Shown: piece by piece, positions 26,358 through 49,860 of the stretch
Numbering within the stretch: the stretch's first letter is position 1
Layout of the letters: every line of letters begins with the position of its first letter
NCBI GenBank assembly: GCA_016188785.1
Contig: JACPHD010000034.1
Coordinates: forward strand, 1 to 54,009
Reading direction: 5' to 3'
Length of the DNA: 54,009 bases
From: Parcubacteria group bacterium
Lineage (GTDB): Bacteria > Patescibacteriota > Patescibacteriia > Patescibacteriales > GWC2-42-12
Notes under the pieces: model-generated
What the model was told of the DNA's origin: nothing
Databases searched by the model: none
Seen by the model: the letters and a program-made list of their open reading frames with translations, nothing else
Program-made: the position numbers and the translations under genes

Positions 26358-26442
26358 GGAGGGTAAAGCGCCTCGGAGGCGCCACAGCCTGATAATCTGT
26401 TGGTTCGCTTTTGCGAATGAGGTTCGACTCCTCTGCTCTCCG
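26358..26442 (+). tRNA. class II, 8/4-type allo-tRNA-like gene, anticodon GAT
   Basis: Acceptor GGAGGGTA/TGCTCTCC (8 bp), selC-like D-arm GCGCCT-CGG-AGGCGC, anticodon loop CTGATAA, variable arm TTCGC-TTTT-GCGAA, T-stem GAGG/CCTC (4 bp) with loop TTCGACT, G73 then CC. Confidence 0.78.
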
Positions 26443-26454
26443 CCGCGCTAAAGG

Positions 26455-31648: not shown

Positions 31649-33034
31649 TCAATTTTTAAATAACCAAACCGGTATAACAGAATACGTCGGGTTTATTTCA
31701 AACATATTTTTGGCAGCCACTAAAAAACGAGTATTATTTTTACCGGCGACTTTGGAAATAAAACGTAAGTCCCGAGAGGTGAAATTTTTTCCGTATTTTA
31801 CTTCAAAATACTGATAATGCGCTTTATCCAGCAAATCATCAGCGCCTAAAAAATTAAACTCATTTCTTCTAATCCTTTTAAAAGAAACATACTGATAGGC
31901 ATTTTTTAAAACCAGCATAAAATAATTTTCAGCCAGATGCCCGAGATATTGGCTTTTTAATTCAAGGTTAGAAAAATCATGAAAGACTGATAAAAAATTA
32001 GCGCTGCTTAAATATACCTTTTTTGACAATCTTCTGGATTTCCTGAATGATTTGCTAAAATTATATATAAAATAAACCAAAAAACTATTTTCCAAATATT
32101 CAAAATAAGCCTTGATGGTTTTTTTATCCAAACCGATTTCCCGGGCAAGATTGTCTATTTCTATGATAGAACCAACTTCATTCACCAGCACCTGAAAGAG
32201 AAATTTAAGCTCTTGAACTTTTTCCACGCCGAATATTCTTGGTATATCATATTCTATGGTTTTTTTATACACCGACTCTGATAAATATTTCATGACAATA
32301 TTCATGTCAGATTCATTGGCTATTTCAGGAAATTGGCCGTATAATAAATATTTTTCAAAGTATTTTACCATCGTCGCTCCAGACTGGTTCACAAAATTTT
32401 TTGCTGAATTCATGTCTTTAATTTCTTTTTGCCCCAAAGCAAGGCCAACTTTTTTATAATTGTTTAATAGTACCGAATCAACGTTGGTAAGCTCCAGATA
32501 CTCGGTAAAACTTAACACCGGCAGATAAAATTCAAAAATCCGGCCAGCCAAGCTTTCGGTAGTTTTTCTTTTTAAAAAAAGCGAGGAAGAGCCGCTGACG
32601 ATAAATTTTATATTCGGCTCAGTGTCATAATAGCGCTTAATAATATGCTGCCATTTTTCACTGTACTGTATCTCATCAAGAAAAATAAAATTCATTTTAT
32701 CCGTATCGGCTATTTCTTTTAAATAACTATTAAGATAATCAGCCAGAGTAAGTTTTTTAGTAAGCAAGGCTTCATCAAAACTCAATAACAAAATCTGTTT
32801 GGCATTCACGCCGGTTGAAATAAGGTGTTCAATAAGTTGTTTTAAGATGATGGTTTTACCAACCCGGCGCAAACCAACAATGGAAAGTACTTGCTTTTTA
32901 GGAAGATAAGGCAATAGCTCATAAAAAAGCTTTCTCTTAAAATTAATGTTTTTAATATCATTAAAAACAGGAGATTCCTGTCCCCAATGCTTATTTTGCC
33001 TATAAATTTCTTCAATTATAGTAGTTTTTTCCAT
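31649..33034 (-). CDS. AAA ATPase with DUF4143 domain
   Basis: GLRRVGKTIILKQLI Walker A, FIFLDEIQYSEKWQ Walker B, C-terminal nuclease-like FEVKYGK. Confidence 0.9.
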   Translation of the reverse strand: MEKTTIIEEIYRQNKHWGQESPVFNDIKNINFKRKLFYELLPYLPKKQVLSIVGLRRVGKTIILKQLIEHLISTGVNAKQILLLSFDEALLTKKLTLADYLNSYLKEIADTDKMNFIFLDEIQYSEKWQHIIKRYYDTEPNIKFIVSGSSSLFLKRKTTESLAGRIFEFYLPVLSFTEYLELTNVDSVLLNNYKKVGLALGQKEIKDMNSAKNFVNQSGATMVKYFEKYLLYGQFPEIANESDMNIVMKYLSESVYKKTIEYDIPRIFGVEKVQELKFLFQVLVNEVGSIIEIDNLAREIGLDKKTIKAYFEYLENSFLVYFIYNFSKSFRKSRRLSKKVYLSSANFLSVFHDFSNLELKSQYLGHLAENYFMLVLKNAYQYVSFKRIRRNEFNFLGADDLLDKAHYQYFEVKYGKNFTSRDLRFISKVAGKNNTRFLVAAKNMFEINPTYSVIPVWLFKN

Positions 33035-35582: not shown

Positions 35583-37862
35583 ATGAACAATGAACAAGTA
35601 TTTTCTGCCGACTGGCTTGGCCGCACTCTCACTATTAAAACCGGCAAATTGGCCCGCCAGGCCGACGCGGCCGTAACCGTACAATACGGCGATACCTCGG
35701 TTTTAGCTACCGTGGTTGAAGCCAAAGTTGAACGAGAAGGCATTGATTTTTTCCCGCTGATGGTTGAATTTGAAGAAAAACTCTACGCCGCCGGCATAAT
35801 TAAAGGTTCGCGCTGGATTAAGCGCGAAGGCCGTCCGTCCGACGAAGCGGTTTTAACCGGACGCATGATTGATCGCTCTATCCGGCCGCTGTTTCAAGCC
35901 GGCTCTAAAAAAGACGTACAAGTAATTATTACTGTTTTATCGGCTGACATGCAGAATGATTATGACATCATTTCTTTAATCGCGGCTTCGGCCGTTCTGT
36001 CCATCGCCGGCTTAAACTGGCGCGGGCCGATTTCCGGCGTCCGGGTGGGCCGAGTTGAAGGCAAATATGTTTTTAATCCGACTTACGCGGAAAGGGAATT
36101 AAGCGACCTGGATTTAATCGTGGTTGGCACGGACAAAAAAACCATTATGATTGAAGCCGCTAGTAAGGAGATTAAAGAAGCTGACATGCTGGAGGCCATT
36201 AAGCAAGGGCAAAATCAACTGCAAGGCGCGCTAAAACTGATTAAACGGGTTGTAGACGGCGTTAAATTGGCTGAAAAAAAACCAGTAAAAAAATTAGTTG
36301 ATCAGGTCGAGCTTACAGCCGAGGCGGAAAAAGCCAAAGTTTTTGCCCTGGCCAAGGATTGGCTTAATAAAAACATCTCGGAAATATTATTTGATAAAAC
36401 CTACTATACTAAGGGCGAACGTAAAGCCGCGGTTGACGCCATTAAAGACAGCTTAAAGCAATATTTATTTGATCAAAGCATTGGTAAAGATCTGCGGCAA
36501 CAAGCCGTGAGCCAGTTAGTTGATGAAGCGGTTGATGCCGAAGTTACACGAGCGATTTTGCGTGATAAAAAAAGAGTTGACGGCCGCCAGCTGGATGAAA
36601 TCAGGCCGCTCCTGGCTGAAGCCGGCATTTTGCCGCGTATCCACGGCTCGGGTCTGTTTAATCGCGGCGAAACCCAGGTGCTGTCCATCGTAACTTTGGG
36701 CGCGCCCGGGCTGGAGCAATCTTTAGAAGGACTGGAAGGTGTTGGCACTAAACGTTATATGCATCATTATAATTTCCCGCCCTTTTCCGTGGGCGAGGCC
36801 AAACCGTTAAGAGGCGCGGGCCGGCGCGAAATCGGCCATGGCGCTTTAGCGGAAAAGGCCCTGGCGCCGGTATTGCCGACTAAAGAAGAATTTCCCTACA
36901 CTATCCGCGTAGTTTCGGAAACTTTAGGCTCTAACGGCTCCTCTTCCATGGCCGCTACCTGCGGTTCCAGTTTAGCTTTAATGGACGCGGGCGCGCCCAT
37001 TAAAAAAGCCGTAGCCGGTATTGCCATGGGACTGGCTTCTAATGAAGACTTGAGCCGCTGGGAAGTTTTAACCGACCTGCAGGACTTAGAAGACGGCCAG
37101 GGCGGCATGGATTTTAAAATAACCGGTACGGCCGATGGCATTACGGCCATTCAATTAGACACTAAAACCGACGGACTGACTGATGAAATAATTGCTAAAA
37201 CTTTAACTCAAGGCCAAAAGGCCAGACTGGAAATTTTACAAGTCATGAATAAAGCCATAGACAAGCCCAGACCGGATCTGTCGCCTTACGCCCCACGCAT
37301 CACCAGCTTTCATATTGAACCGGACCGCATCCGCGAAGTTATCGGCACCGGCGGCAAAGTCATTAACGAAATTATCGCCGCCACCGGCGTTAGTATTGAC
37401 ATTGACGATGACGGCCTGGTCATGGTCTGCGGCACGGACGCGGCCAAATGCGAAGAAGCGGTTAACTGGATAAAAAATATTGTGCGCGACTTTGAGCCCG
37501 GCGAAATTTTTACCGGTAAAGTCGTACGCCTAATGGACTTCGGCGTTTTTGTGCAATTAACGCCAAATAAAGACGGCATGGCGCATGTTTCGGAACTGGC
37601 GCCGTACCGCATTGGCCGGCCCAGCGACTTTATAAACATCGGCGACGAAGTTACGGTAAAAATTATTGAAATAGACGACCAAGGCCGAGTCAATTTAACC
37701 CTAAAAGACCTGCCGGAAAATGAGCATCTTTGGAAAGACGGCAAAGGCAAACAAGAGGCCAGCGGCCTGCCCGGCGGACGTCCGTCTTTCGGCCACAACG
37801 GCCGAGATCACGGCGATCGCGGCAACCACCGGCCTGAACGGCGCGGCGGATTTAGGAGATAG
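35583..37862 (+). CDS. pnp: polyribonucleotide nucleotidyltransferase
   Basis: RNase PH domains, KH (IREVIGTGGKVINEIIAATGVSIDIDDDG), S1 (GEIFTGKVVRLMDFGVFVQL). Confidence 0.97.
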   Translation: MNNEQVFSADWLGRTLTIKTGKLARQADAAVTVQYGDTSVLATVVEAKVEREGIDFFPLMVEFEEKLYAAGIIKGSRWIKREGRPSDEAVLTGRMIDRSIRPLFQAGSKKDVQVIITVLSADMQNDYDIISLIAASAVLSIAGLNWRGPISGVRVGRVEGKYVFNPTYAERELSDLDLIVVGTDKKTIMIEAASKEIKEADMLEAIKQGQNQLQGALKLIKRVVDGVKLAEKKPVKKLVDQVELTAEAEKAKVFALAKDWLNKNISEILFDKTYYTKGERKAAVDAIKDSLKQYLFDQSIGKDLRQQAVSQLVDEAVDAEVTRAILRDKKRVDGRQLDEIRPLLAEAGILPRIHGSGLFNRGETQVLSIVTLGAPGLEQSLEGLEGVGTKRYMHHYNFPPFSVGEAKPLRGAGRREIGHGALAEKALAPVLPTKEEFPYTIRVVSETLGSNGSSSMAATCGSSLALMDAGAPIKKAVAGIAMGLASNEDLSRWEVLTDLQDLEDGQGGMDFKITGTADGITAIQLDTKTDGLTDEIIAKTLTQGQKARLEILQVMNKAIDKPRPDLSPYAPRITSFHIEPDRIREVIGTGGKVINEIIAATGVSIDIDDDGLVMVCGTDAAKCEEAVNWIKNIVRDFEPGEIFTGKVVRLMDFGVFVQLTPNKDGMAHVSELAPYRIGRPSDFINIGDEVTVKIIEIDDQGRVNLTLKDLPENEHLWKDGKGKQEASGLPGGRPSFGHNGRDHGDRGNHRPERRGGFRR

Positions 37863-37966
37863 CTTCCCCCTTGTCAAAGGGGATTAGGGGGATTGTATTT
37901 GTCATTGCGACCTCCGAGCCGTAATCCATTTCCTTGATCTATCTTTTTGGTAATTACTTCATATCA

Positions 37967-37997
37967 AAACACCCCAGGAAAGGGGGTGTTTTTTTAT
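37967..37997 (+). terminator. intrinsic terminator downstream of pnp
   Basis: AAAACACCCC-AGGAAA-GGGGGTGTTTTTTT. Confidence 0.85.
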
Positions 37998-38012: not shown

Positions 38013-38039
38013 TTGACATTCAATAATTTGTGATATAAT
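38013..38039 (+). promoter_or_regulatory. candidate sigma70 promoter for the 38.1-kb RNA
   Basis: TTGACA - 15 bp - TATAAT; spacer slightly short. Confidence 0.55.
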
Positions 38040-38097
38040 AGAATTGAAACCTACTATATGTAGTTTTTATTAATTCGGCAAAGATATATAATTTTAT

Positions 38098-38226
38098 AAA
38101 ACCGTCTTCTGACGGAAGCAAATTTCGGCTCGGTAGAACAATCGGATAGTTCAAGGATCTACTAAATCCTTAATCAGGGATCATGCCCCTGCCGGGCCTT
38201 ATTTGCTTCCGCCAATAGACGGTTTT
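38098..38226 (+). ncRNA. tRNA-fold RNA embedded in a long hairpin (outer stems plus terminator-like end)
   Basis: AAAACCGTCT/AGACGGTTTT and CGGAAGCAAA/TTTGCTTCCG helices flank a cloverleaf at 38127-38198. Confidence 0.75.
38127..38199 (+). tRNA. tRNA-like cloverleaf, anticodon ACT, identity unknown
   Basis: Acceptor GGCTCGG/CCGGGCC, TA, D-arm GAAC-AATCGGATA-GTTC, anticodon AGGAT-CTACTAA-ATCCT, variable TAAT, T-arm CAGGG-ATCATGC-CCCTG, U73. Confidence 0.65.
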
Positions 38227-38244
38227 GTTTAATGTAATCGTATA

Positions 38245-38700
38245 TTATTTATTTAATTCTTGAATAATCTTGGTTTTAAATCTTTTGAAATAAAAAATAT
38301 ATTGTTTGATCGCAGTTTTATCTATATTTAACGCATCATTAGGAAAATACCTATATTTTCTTGAAGCTTTATATAAAGTTATATAATCATATCCCACGTC
38401 TTTTCCGACTTTTTGCATAACCGCGGAATTCATACCTATTCTTACAATACTACCTCCATTATCATATTTATCTTGATGTGCTTGCGGTGTCTCCCAGCTA
38501 CGTATTTCGAATAATGTTTTAGCGAACATCAGTGCAGAATAAAATAGTATTATTACTACCCAATCGTAATGTTTTTCTGTCTCAAGAATATTAAGTGCAA
38601 ATTCATAATTTTTTGATGCTAGTAAAAAGCATTTATTACCTTCGTATTCCATTTTATAATAAATTACTTTTCCAAATAAGAACGTTAATCTACTGTACAA
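38245..38700 (-). CDS. HEPN-like protein
   Basis: Helical ORF with KASRKYRYFP and ILFYSALMFAKTLFE; likely start at MEYEGNK; paired with the next gene. Confidence 0.5.
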   Translation of the reverse strand: MYSRLTFLFGKVIYYKMEYEGNKCFLLASKNYEFALNILETEKHYDWVVIILFYSALMFAKTLFEIRSWETPQAHQDKYDNGGSIVRIGMNSAVMQKVGKDVGYDYITLYKASRKYRYFPNDALNIDKTAIKQYIFYFKRFKTKIIQELNK

Positions 38701-38959
38701 AGCATGATTCAGTATGGGTAAATAAATTTACTGATACATTGTATTTATTTTTAACCCTATCTTCAATTTCTACTATCTCCCTTTCTATTTTAGGGCTAAT
38801 TTTTTTTGTAACTACTAAAACCTCAAAAATATTTTCGTTTTTTTGTTCAACAAAAATTTTTTCTATTTCTTCGTATTCTCCTAATTTTCTATTTATATAT
38901 TCCAATATTTTTTTCTTATCAGAATCAGAAATATCTTTTTGTAATGTCTTTTTGATCAT
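38690..38959 (-). CDS. small protein upstream of HEPN-like gene (possible partner)
   Basis: 89 aa, overlaps the HEPN-like ORF start; no firm family. Confidence 0.45.
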   Translation of the reverse strand: MIKKTLQKDISDSDKKKILEYINRKLGEYEEIEKIFVEQKNENIFEVLVVTKKISPKIEREIVEIEDRVKNKYNVSVNLFTHTESCFVQ

Positions 38960-40490: not shown

Positions 40491-41651
40491 TTATTCTATA
40501 AACAACGGATCACTGGAATCAATCAGCTGAACTTTTACTTTGTACTGGTTTTCAAACGCCCGCTTATTGATCTTTTGCTTTTTCCATTTAATCTCATAAG
40601 CGGAAATCTTTTCGCCTTCTTTTATAATTAAATCTACCTCGCTTTTGGCCCGCGAACGCCAGAAATATAAATTTTTCTTTTGACCGTAAAGCAGATTATG
40701 CTTCATGAATTCGGCCACTACCCAATTTTCCCAAAGCTGGCCGATGTCGCTTCTTAAAGGGTTTAAAGAAAACTCGTTTAAAATCGCGTTGCGGACGCCG
40801 GTATCGTAAAAATAAATTTTATGATTTTTGGAAATTTCTTTCCGGGGGTTGGTGCTAAAAGCCGGCAAACGAAAAATCACGAAAGTTTGTTCAAGCAGAT
40901 CAAGGTATTTATCGACCGTCGCCTTGCTCATGCTAAGTCCATTTGCCAGTTCATTAACCGAAACTTCCGCGCCGGCCTGATGCGCCAGCGTCATCAGCAG
41001 TTTTTTTATAAGATCCGGAGTTTTAATCAACCCGAGCTGAAGCACATCTTTTAATAAATAATCGGAGACTAAATTCAAAAGATATTGCTGCCGGTCGCCC
41101 GACACCGCCGTTTCCGGATAGTTGCCAAAGACTAAAGATTCAAGCAGTAGCGAATTTATCTGGTTAGAAAAATTATTAATTAAAATCTTTTTATCATAAT
41201 TATCCGAATACCATGGCTGTCCGGCAATTATCTCTTTAAATAAAAACGGCGATAAAAATAATTTCTCGTTCCGTCCGGTTAAACTTTCCGCCGATTGGTT
41301 GATCAGATCAAGGCTGGAAGAACCGAGCAGAATTATTTTCTGGCTGATCGGCGCGTCATACCAGCCCTTGACGATTTGACCGGTATTTTTCAATCTTTGC
41401 GCTTCGTCAATAATTAAATATTTAGGCTGATTTAGCGTTTTCATGGCCTGTGCCGGCGCCAGCGAAGCCAAGGCCAAAAATCTATTCTTATCTACCTCAA
41501 TATCCAGATTTAAAAATACCGTCTTTTTATTATCTAAAAAATGCTTAATCAGAGTCGTTTTACCGACTTGCCGCGCGCCTAAAACTATTAAAACCTTTTG
41601 ATTATTAACTATTTTGGCTAAAATTGCTTCTGCCTGTCTTTTGATATACAT
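40491..41651 (-). CDS. AAA ATPase with DUF4143 domain
   Basis: LGARQVGKTTLIKHFL, YLIIDEAQRLKNTGQ, FWRSRAKSEVDLII. Confidence 0.92.
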   Translation of the reverse strand: MYIKRQAEAILAKIVNNQKVLIVLGARQVGKTTLIKHFLDNKKTVFLNLDIEVDKNRFLALASLAPAQAMKTLNQPKYLIIDEAQRLKNTGQIVKGWYDAPISQKIILLGSSSLDLINQSAESLTGRNEKLFLSPFLFKEIIAGQPWYSDNYDKKILINNFSNQINSLLLESLVFGNYPETAVSGDRQQYLLNLVSDYLLKDVLQLGLIKTPDLIKKLLMTLAHQAGAEVSVNELANGLSMSKATVDKYLDLLEQTFVIFRLPAFSTNPRKEISKNHKIYFYDTGVRNAILNEFSLNPLRSDIGQLWENWVVAEFMKHNLLYGQKKNLYFWRSRAKSEVDLIIKEGEKISAYEIKWKKQKINKRAFENQYKVKVQLIDSSDPLFIE

Positions 41652-46060: not shown

Positions 46061-46385
46061 CTTAAAGATTGAAAACGCAACTTAACAATTTACGCTTTGT
46101 AAAATATACGCAGCAGCTTTTTACAAAGCATGTTTAGTGCTAACAGGCGCTAATTCAAAATTAGAAGAATTAATTTCTTCAAATACACCCAGTGAAATTC
46201 GCTTTGCGACTATTTCACGGGGTAAATTTTTGCGTGTTTTTTAAAATACGTAACATGGAGCTACCATGGAAAAAACTTATTGAGAGTTTGACCCCGCCTC
46301 GGCGGGGTGAACGCTGACTCAACTTCGTTGAGAGCGTTCCTAACTTTCGCTAGGATTCAAGTAAACCTAGTAAAATAAACTTATT

Positions 46386-46425
<40 letters not shown>

Positions 46426-47246
46426 TCTAAGGCATGCAAGTCGAACGCGCCTCCGCTCTTCACTGCGTGAAGAGCTTCGGACGCGCAAGCGCCCTATCAT
46501 AAAATAGGGAGCTTGCTCACCGTAGCTCATGCGTAGCGATGAGCGGAGGTGAGTGGCAAACGGGTGCGTAACACATTGGTAACTTACCCCGAAGTCATGA
46601 ATAAGCTTGCGAAAGCGGGTCTAATACATGATGGAAGCGAGGGGACTAAAGTCATTCTCGCTTAAAGCCTCGCCCCGCATCTGCGGGGCGGGGCGCTTCG
46701 GGAAAGGCCTATGGCCTATCAGCTAGTTGGCGAGGTAAAAGCTCACCAAGGCAACGACGGGTAGCGGGTGTGAGAGCATGGCCCGCCTCACTGGGACTGA
46801 GACACTGCCCAGACTCCTACGGGAGGCTGCAGTCAAGAATATTCCCCAATGGCCGAAAGGCTGAGGGAGCGACGCCGCGTGTATGAGGAAGCCCTTCGGG
46901 GTGTAAAATACTTTTAACCGGGACGAATCAATGACGGTACCGGTTGAATAAGGGGCTGCTAAACTCGTGCCAGCAGCAGCGGTAATACGAGTGCCCCAAG
47001 CGTTATCCGGATTTATTGGGCGTAAAGCGTACGTAGGCGGTTTATCGCATCTCCTGTTAAATCCCGAGGCTCAACCTCGGGGCCGCGGGAGAGATGGCTA
47101 AACTAGAGACCGGGAGAGGCAAGTGGAATTGCTGGTGTAGGGGTTAAATCCGTTAATATCAGCAAGAACACCTAATGTGAAGACAGCTTGCTAGAACGGT
47201 TCTGACGCTAAGGTACGAAAGCGTGGGGAGCGAATGGGATTAGATA

Positions 47247-48306
47247 ATCCATGCCCGCTCATAAAATATAGGTAAAAGGTGTCTCTTTTGACGGCGACGT
47301 CAAGATGAAAATTCAGCTATATCGGGGAAACTCCTGACAAAATGAGGTTTTACTGGCCTCGCCAGGACAATCCCGAGGGAAGTTCCATGGCCCGAAAAGC
47401 CATGATGAACCCCGTAGAGACTATGAAGTTGGTTTCGAGATAGAAGGCGCATTAATTAAAATATATGAATCATTATGTGCCTTTGTCGGATCGCGCCAAG
47501 GAAATTATTCTTGGCTCGCTTTTAGGGGATGGATCATTAAAGATCCATGATAAATACAAGAATGCCAGATTTTCTTTCAGGCATTCCGAGGCGCAAAAAG
47601 ATTATTTCTTCTGGAAAGTAAAAAATCTGAAAGAAATATCTTCAAAAAATTGCGTTTTTTGGCAGGAAAACAACGGCGGATTCAGTTCTAATAAAAAAAT
47701 CAGGTATCAAAGCTTGGCCTTGCCGTCGCTTACTGAAATTTATCAACTTACCCATAAGAAAAAAAAATTGCGTATCAGCCGGAGATGGCTGAACAAAATG
47801 ACAGCTCTGTCATTGGCTATTTGGTGGTTTGATGACGGTTCGCTGATTGCCAACGGCCGCAAAGGAGTATTTTGCACAGATGGTTTTGACGAAAAAAGCG
47901 TTAAAACTCTAGCGCAATACTTCTTGGTCGTTTGGAAAATCAAGACTAAAGTCGCGCCAATTACCAGAAAAAGGCGGGGGGAGCAGAAAAAATATTGGCG
48001 GCTCTGGCTGTATTCAACGGAAGAGCTGAAAAAATTTCTGCGGCTGATATTGCCGCAGACGCCGACGGCAAGCGCTTTGTCGAAAGTCGCGCTTCTCTAC
48101 AATGATCAACAACTTCAACAACGCTGGATATCTGAAATAGTTCAGTTAAGCCGTTTTTCTCTATCTGCCATTATGGCAGAATATGAGAAAAAACGCGCTA
48201 AATGGAGCCGTTACAGATAAAGATCTAGTCCGGACTTCATGGTAACATGAAGAATGGGACAGAAATGTTCCCATCAATTGCTAAAAGCAATTTGCAACAA
48301 ATTCAA
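47247..48306 (+). other. group I-like intron in 16S rRNA (E. coli about position 794), splice sites inferred
   Basis: Exons ATTAGATA | CCCCAGTAGTCC; P7-like GAGACTA (47416-47423) and AAGATCTAGTCC (48219-48231) flank the endonuclease ORF; P9-like CTTCATGGTAACATGAAG. Confidence 0.85.
47465..48220 (+). CDS. LAGLIDADG homing endonuclease
   Basis: IILGSLLGDGSLKI and LSLAIWWFDDGSLIANGRKG dodecapeptide-type motifs. Confidence 0.93.
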   Translation: MNHYVPLSDRAKEIILGSLLGDGSLKIHDKYKNARFSFRHSEAQKDYFFWKVKNLKEISSKNCVFWQENNGGFSSNKKIRYQSLALPSLTEIYQLTHKKKKLRISRRWLNKMTALSLAIWWFDDGSLIANGRKGVFCTDGFDEKSVKTLAQYFLVVWKIKTKVAPITRKRRGEQKKYWRLWLYSTEELKKFLRLILPQTPTASALSKVALLYNDQQLQQRWISEIVQLSRFSLSAIMAEYEKKRAKWSRYR

Positions 48307-48441
48307 CCCCAGTAGTCCACGCCGTAAACGATGGATGCTGAGCATTGGAAGTATCGACCCTTCCAGTGCTGTCTACCTAAGTTAACACCTTAAGCATCCC
48401 GCCTGGGGAGTACGAGCGCAAGCTTAAAACTCAAAGGAATA

Positions 48442-48485
<44 letters not shown>

Positions 48486-48567
48486 AGTAAGCGAGGAACC
48501 TCACCAAGGTTTGACATCCGGCTGCAGACCCCTGGAAACAGGGGAGCCTTCGAGGGTGCCGGACAGA

Positions 48568-48604
<37 letters not shown>

Positions 48605-49277
48605 ACCGTTAATTCGGGAAACGAGCGCAACCCCTATCCTATGTTTCATGTGTCATAGGAAACTGCCCGCTTTAAGTGGGAGGAAGGTGGGGATGACGTC
48701 AAATCAGCATGGTTCTTACACCTTGGGCGACACACGTGCTACAATGGGAAGCACAAAGGGACGCCAAAGCGTAAGCTGGAGCAAATCCTTTAAAACTTCT
48801 CTCAGTTCGGATTGAGGTCTGCAACTCGACCTCATGAAGCTGGAATCGCTAGTAAACGTGGATCAGCCACGCCACGGTAATGCCCGAAGGCCCCGCATTT
48901 GCGGGGACGAAGGTAGGATCGATGATAGGGACGAAGTCGTAACAAGGCATCCGTAGCGGAAGCTGTGGATGGATCACCTCCTTTCTAGGGAGAAAAAAGA
49001 ATTTTCGATTGCAGATTTTCGATTTACGATTTCTGCGCGGAAATTCATAGTCGAAATTTTAGAGGCGAATTTGATTTTAAATCTAAAATCTAAAATCTAA
49101 AATCTAAAATTACCAGAGTTAGCGCCTGTTAGTACTAAATATAGTTAAAAGTTATAAAGTCCATAAAGTCAAAATTCAATGACTTTAAAGACTTTAGATT
49201 TTCAGACTTTTGACTCAAACAAATAGTTTATGGGCCTATTTGTCCCCCCTTCGCTAAAGCTACGGAGGATAAATTAT

Positions 49278-49327: not shown

Positions 49328-49401
<74 letters not shown>

Positions 49402-49482
49402 CCGAGTAAATTTTCGATTTATAATTTTCGATTTTAGATTTAAAATCTTCAATCGAAAATCTTAAATCTTAAATTTCTACAT

Positions 49483-49558
49483 CGCGGGGTAGAGCAGTTG
49501 GCAGCTCGCCAGGCCCATAACCTGGAGGCCGTGGGTTCGAATCCCACCCCCGCAACCA
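49483..49558 (+). tRNA. initiator tRNA-fMet(CAT), CCA encoded
   Basis: CGCGGGG...CCAGGCCCATAACCTGG...CCCCCGCAACCA with unpaired C1-A72. Confidence 0.96.
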
Positions 49559-49632
49559 AGATATTTGCGATTTATAATTTTCGATTTTAGATTTAATTCG
49601 CAAATCGAAAATCTGAAATCTGAAATTACCAC

Positions 49633-49707
49633 GCCTCGGTAGCTCAGTGGTAGAGCAAACGACTGAAAATCGTTGTGTCGTCAGTTCGATTCTGACCCGG
49701 GGCACCA
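49633..49707 (+). tRNA. tRNA-Phe(GAA), CCA encoded
   Basis: GCCTCGG...AACGA-CTGAAAA-TCGTT...CCGGGGCACCA. Confidence 0.95.
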
Positions 49708-49786
49708 AGTTATTCTCGATTTTTGATTTGCGATTTTTAATTTTGTTATAAATCGCAAATCAAAAATCTTAAATCTGAAATACCTT

Positions 49787-49860
49787 CGGGCTGTAGTATA
49801 ACGGTAGTACGTCTGCTTTGGGAGCAGATAGCCTGGGTTCAATTCCCAGCAGCCCGACCA
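49787..49860 (+). tRNA. tRNA-Pro(TGG), CCA encoded
   Basis: CGGGCTG...TCTGC-TTTGGGA-GCAGA...CAGCCCGACCA. Confidence 0.95.

Follow-up and report, generated by a model that had tools for sequence, protein, structure and literature searches.

Two described bacterial RNAs come closest to the element considered in this report. The tRNA-Other of Bacillus cereus is a published pseudo-tRNA that lies at a genomic island and belongs to a longer RNA (PMC3399842), and YrlA, a bacterial Y RNA of 90 to 150 nt, consists of a basal stem and a tRNA-like domain that binds PNPase (PMC8394870). The ACU unit, so called for its anticodon, is a hairpin of 129 nt with an embedded tRNA-like cloverleaf, located at 38098-38226 of the window, i.e., the whole 54,009-nt stretch of Patescibacteria DNA that was analyzed. 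Like tRNA-Other, it has a tRNA fold, is surplus to the tRNA set, borders a genomic island, and is possibly part of a longer RNA; the likeness is one of fold, redundancy, and setting, and tRNA-Other differs in having a Trp anticodon and in lying within RNAs of several hundred nt, whereas the ACU unit is a compact hairpin. Its likeness to YrlA lies in the long end-to-end stem, the tRNA-like domain, and the adjacent gene for PNPase. YrlA lacks a full anticodon arm, which the ACU unit has. Three marks of an island pseudo-tRNA (a tRNA fold, redundancy, and a place at a genomic island) are found in the ACU unit, and our tentative preference, which we hold to be somewhat short of probable, is that it is an island-associated pseudo-tRNA whose fold has been kept. 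Few bacterial pseudo-tRNAs combine a kept fold with lost translation contacts, and streamlined one-megabase genomes should carry no useless ones.

The cloverleaf occupies 38127-38199 on the forward strand and measures 73 nt with U73. Its arms have 7, 4, 5, and 5 bp: the acceptor stem at 38127-38133/38192-38198, the D stem at 38136-38139/38149-38152, the anticodon stem at 38154-38158/38166-38170, and the T stem at 38175-38179/38187-38191. All 21 pairs are canonical, one of them G-U. The anticodon ACU (38161-38163) stands in the loop CUACUAA (38159-38165), the D-loop is conserved, and U8, A14, G18-G19, U33, A15-U48, U55-C56, A26, and A37 are all present. The earlier note on this DNA was thus right in its description of canonical arm lengths, of kept tertiary positions, and of a T54-A58 pair swapped for A54-U58, which falls in an aberrant T loop, AUCAUGC (38180-38186).

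ARAGORN calls the cloverleaf, with a label, tRNA-Ser(ACT), that derives from the anticodon only, and made no tRNA call in 10.8 Mb of dinucleotide-shuffled window. A covariance model built from 59 Patescibacteria tRNAs (the CPR tRNA model), run with filters off, gave the cloverleaf 52.1 bits (E = 7e-13), compared with 68 to 78 bits for the genuine short-arm tRNAs of the window and at most 16 bits for non-tRNA sequence. The Rfam tRNA model (RF00005) did not report the unit at the gathering cut-off, in short stretches at E values as high as 5 or 10, or genome-wide, for which Infernal filters may be the cause.

Two helices extend the acceptor, as had been noted before, although only the outer one has the 10 bp claimed for both; the inner one has 11. 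On the forward strand the order is AAAACCGTCT-TCTGA-CGGAAGCAAAT-TTC-(73-nt cloverleaf)-T-ATTTGCTTCCG-CCAAT-AGACGGTTTT, followed by GTTTAAT. The outer strands lie at 38098-38107 and 38217-38226, the latter running into a T-rich tail, and the inner strands at 38113-38123 and 38201-38211. The 146 bases around the unit have a minimum free energy of -62.1 kcal/mol, compared with -31.9 +/- 3.6 kcal/mol in shuffles, none of which was as low (z = -8.4). For the 129-nt unit, the true cloverleaf is 1.0 kcal/mol above the minimum, with acceptor and anticodon helices that are near certain and D and T arms that face a competing fold (mean pair probabilities of 0.46 and 0.29).

Signals for transcription can be read on both sides of the unit. 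A possible promoter at 38013-38039 pairs TTGACA (38013-38018) with TATAAT (38034-38039). Both hexamers are perfect, but their spacer is 15 nt and the pair was not listed in a consensus scan with 16- to 18-nt spacing, and so the claim that the unit has its own promoter is weaker than had been stated. A second possible -10 box, TATAAT at 38087-38092, directly precedes the hairpin without a clear -35 box; similar boxes directly precede other tRNAs of the genome, e.g., L060 and L063. The outer helix and the T-rich tail (38217-38229) probably act as an intrinsic terminator for the RNA and may also terminate the genes of the opposite strand. We infer that the unit is transcribed.

The genome already carries complete arginine and serine sets, with five Arg tRNAs (CCG, CCT, GCG, TCG, and TCT) and four Ser tRNAs (CGA, GCT, GGA, and TGA), and therefore the ACU anticodon is surplus, as unexpected in a bacterial set as had been proposed. 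AGU is an ordinary codon, used 20 times in seven ORFs of the window. Since the codon is ordinary and the anticodon surplus to the isoacceptors, the suggestion of a recoding tRNA finds no support; U73, A54, and U58 also speak against an efficient translating tRNA. The companion suggestion of a tRNA mimic fared better: it fits if a pseudo-tRNA is meant, but the analysis found no partner.

The closest relatives of the cloverleaf are arginine tRNAs. Its best sequence match is L091, a tRNA-Arg(CCU) identical at 53 of 73 positions, in a sample pre-enriched in Arg(CCU/UCU) by the unit model, which makes the ranking supporting rather than independent evidence. Matches of that model in three partly overlapping searches (389, 111, and 389 genomes) were mostly tRNA-Arg(CCU) and tRNA-Arg(UCU). 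The ACU tRNA shares the D-loop style of these Patescibacteria tRNAs and differs from them in the anticodon loop at position 34 only. It also has A20, C35, and U36, which are arginine identity elements in bacteria. To judge from its sequence, then, the ACU unit is of arginine tRNA descent, in the tRNA-Arg(NCU) lineage. The acceptor is Cys-like: it matches that of the genome's tRNA-Cys in length, in U73, and in 5 of 7 pairs; the two differing pairs are U-G for C-G and C-G for U-A. The earlier note had called the acceptor and U73 Cys- or Gly-like, and the Cys likeness stands, but the resemblance of the body and anticodon loop to tRNA-Arg(CCU/UCU) had been missed.

Apart from the anticodon and the acceptor with U73, the ACU tRNA departs from tRNA-Arg(CCU/UCU) in its D stem, its T loop, and its 3' end, where CCA is not encoded. 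U54 and A58 are invariant across the 59 CPR tRNAs, and both are changed. In the D stem, GAAC/GUUC, the pairs A11-U24 and A12-U23 are reversed with respect to the usual elongator Y11-R24, an initiator-type feature. The conserved points reversed or lost are thus T54-A58, Y11-R24, and A/G73. Pairing was maintained nonetheless: compared with L091, 11 of the 21 pairs are the same and 10 differ, three on one side and seven on both, and none is broken, a comparison made against ordinary tRNAs only because no homologues were found. When 20 random substitutions are placed on such a cloverleaf, all 21 pairs survive in about 5 per million trials. Seven two-sided changes without a broken pair indicate that structure was maintained as the sequence diverged, and it would have been kept either at the ACU locus itself or in an unsampled functional ancestor. 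The odd features are known from one sequence; they could be very recent, and the paired changes could be inherited from an unsampled functional tRNA.

The unit occurs in a single species. A blastn search of 61 relatives, phages, and plasmids gave short chance matches only, and degenerate DNA patterns of the unit matched nothing in viral and genome contigs. The covariance model of the whole unit, R1, found no homologue in 111 genomes of the order or in samples of 389 genomes each from the phylum and the class; the model scores the unit itself at 162 bits, and all other hits inspected were ordinary tRNAs that scored no more than about 61 bits, most of them Arg(CCU/UCU). The earlier note had looked to a search of CPR genomes with a locus-built model for homologues preserving the cloverleaf and would have read their absence against its own proposal; none of any kind was found, and in form the outcome goes against it. 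A repeated MITE is ruled out, since the unit is single copy in the genome.

The gene for PNPase, pnp (35583-37862), ends 235 nt upstream of the unit and carries a separate terminator at 37961-37997. Directly after pnp, the same-genus genome G001 has homologues of window genes from 42.7-44.2 kb and G008 has a homologue of the window gene at 44.7 kb, so that both lack everything between pnp and 42.7 kb, and in G002 different genes follow; the segment at about 38.0-42 kb, missing from these relatives, is therefore a species-specific insertion, with the ACU RNA at its left edge. The neighbors of the unit in the insertion are orphan or defence-like and lie on the opposite strand. The convergent neighbor is an orphan ORF of 151 aa (38245-38700), for which Pfam gave no family at 0.01 and searches of the order and of genome and viral contigs gave no homologue; its predicted fold is of low confidence. 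It is followed by a small orphan ORF of 89 aa (38690-38959), modeled as alpha-beta-beta-alpha-beta (pLDDT 80) and weakly resembling chains of ribosomal protein S3 (best Foldseek E, 2e-3), by an AAA_14/DUF4143 ATPase of the candidate defence family PDC-S01 (40491-41651), and, among the other downstream genes, by two more small ORFs and a HARE-HTH protein weakly similar to restriction enzymes. A second AAA_14/DUF4143 gene was observed at 31649-33034. The two ORFs at 38245-38959 were also considered as a HEPN-MNT toxin-antitoxin pair with the RNA as a decoy; this was rejected, with no Pfam or PADLOC support and no MNT active-site motif seen, and it is further disfavored by the poor model of the 151-aa ORF and the weakly S3-like 89-aa ORF. 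The one candidate for att sites of the island is an AT-rich repeat of 16 nt, at 38236 and 41713, and it is no better than chance repeats nearby.

Long hairpins around tRNAs are not confined to the ACU unit in this genome. The pairing of the 45-nt flanks of 41 genome tRNAs was compared with that of 100 shuffles each, and in 13 of the 41 no shuffle paired as strongly; by flank-duplex energy the ACU unit is the second lowest of the 41, and its z-score (-9.1) is the strongest. Pairing that strong is seen in only 3 of 67 tRNAs of two same-genus genomes. With so many ordinary tRNAs here in long hairpins, the hairpin alone is no argument for a non-translational role. These tRNAs resemble the ACU unit in leader and trailer pairing over 10 or more bp, but they are ordinary isoacceptors, several of them within an interrupted outer tRNA, and the ACU unit is neither.

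The interrupted cases (L052, L053, L057, L063, L077, and L084) are native tRNAs split by an insert in which palindromic arms enclose another tRNA, divergent and of the same isotype as its host. The interruption falls mostly in or beside the anticodon loop, with a wider one in the Pro locus L084 that starts at the D arm. The outer halves in L052, L053, L057, and L084 match intact orthologues of the sister genome G001. In L052, the inner Thr(TGT) tRNA is flanked by the native tRNA-Thr in two halves, which agree with the intact G001 gene at 35/35 and 40/40 positions, and its own flank shuffle test is below significance; the layout is likewise nested for Val(TAC), Val(CAC), Glu, Pro, and Gly. By eye, the same layout was seen at L121, L123, L125, and L024 of other Patescibacteria and at L182 of G001, where tRNA-Arg or tRNA-Trp stands between palindromic arms with the halves of another tRNA outside, split in the anticodon, T, or D loop. 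A search of the available literature found no paper on tRNA-in-tRNA genes. The nested tRNAs seem to be a larger discovery than the ACU unit, and in this genome and other Patescibacteria they bear on tRNA gene replacement in reduced genomes.

If the ACU unit is an island pseudo-tRNA, as we prefer, its RNA would be a self-terminating hairpin transcript of 129 nt, or slightly longer, from the island edge, with the long paired leader and trailer serving to protect and terminate it, and it may be kept whole or trimmed to the 73-nt tRNA body. Selection would keep the tRNA shape, while contacts with translation factors and modification enzymes would have been lost along with U54-A58, Y11-R24, a usable discriminator, and an encoded CCA. 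Loss of these contacts with retention of the shape makes a role outside decoding likely, perhaps as a tRNA-shaped structural element of a regulatory or decoy RNA, as in the proposal for tRNA-Other. If expressed, such an RNA would be a natural test of which tRNA contacts are dispensable for shape. A functionless plain pseudogene, i.e., a decaying or newly arrived tRNA-Arg gene carried by the island, would also account for the surplus anticodon, single-species distribution, aberrant T loop, missing CCA, and orphan island genes, but we consider it unlikely, for random decay would not have spared all 21 pairs of the cloverleaf and the roughly 21 pairs of its flanks, and a plausible promoter and terminator are present. 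Neither does a working tRNA seem likely, one that would read AGN codons and be charged with arginine (through A20, C35, and U36) or cysteine (through the acceptor and U73): its complete cloverleaf, canonical anticodon loop, conserved D-loop, and nearness to tRNA-Arg(CCU) fit such a function, but with either charge it would misread AGU, an ordinary serine codon. The genome also has full Ser and Arg sets, and the ACU tRNA has neither U54 nor A58 and carries a U73 that is not arginine-like. On sequence grounds, the ACU tRNA is probably no longer used in protein synthesis.

The nested loci offer two further readings. The layout of the ACU unit is shared with the inner tRNAs of all six, but that it is one of the genome's tRNA-carrying palindromic elements, landed outside a tRNA gene, is very doubtful, given that its arms lack the CCCCG...CGGGG sequence of the nested units and are single copy and that removal of the tRNA with 3 to 79 nt per flank joins no interrupted outer tRNA. 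It is quite unlikely, too, that the unit is a free-standing Patescibacteria tRNA-hairpin element, of a class that inserts into tRNA genes and supplies a replacement tRNA, that has drifted to a non-translational RNA. A Y RNA-like molecule, with a basal stem formed by both ends and a tRNA-like domain that tethers PNPase, would match YrlA in architecture and size and suit the proximity of pnp; we nevertheless judge it highly improbable, as the genome (94.8% complete) has no Ro60/Rsr (TROVE) match, the YrlA model (RF02553) has no match at the locus even at an E value of 10, and the unit is missing downstream of pnp in relatives. That only the hairpin matters, terminating transcription in both directions between pnp and the convergent orphan operon, with a loop that is tRNA-like by chance, agrees with the position between convergent genes and with a tail that is T-rich on one strand and A-rich on the other, but is scarcely credible beside the absence of chance tRNA calls in the shuffles and the presence of pnp's own terminator.

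Other RNA features of the window were noted in passing. Insertions in 16S rRNA are known in CPR bacteria, and the 16S rRNA match at 46380-48984 spans 2605 bases against a 1533-position model, so that about 1 kb is inserted, intron-like. A second tRNA-Ile(GAT) call at 26358-26444, of 87 nt, scores 25.4 bits, below the Rfam cut-off, and 11.4 bits with the CPR tRNA model; it is possibly a tRNA relic. At 49328-49860 there is an Ile-Met-Phe-Pro tRNA array in which AT-rich intergenic repeats (..cgaaaatctgaaatct..) pair across the Met and Phe tRNAs.
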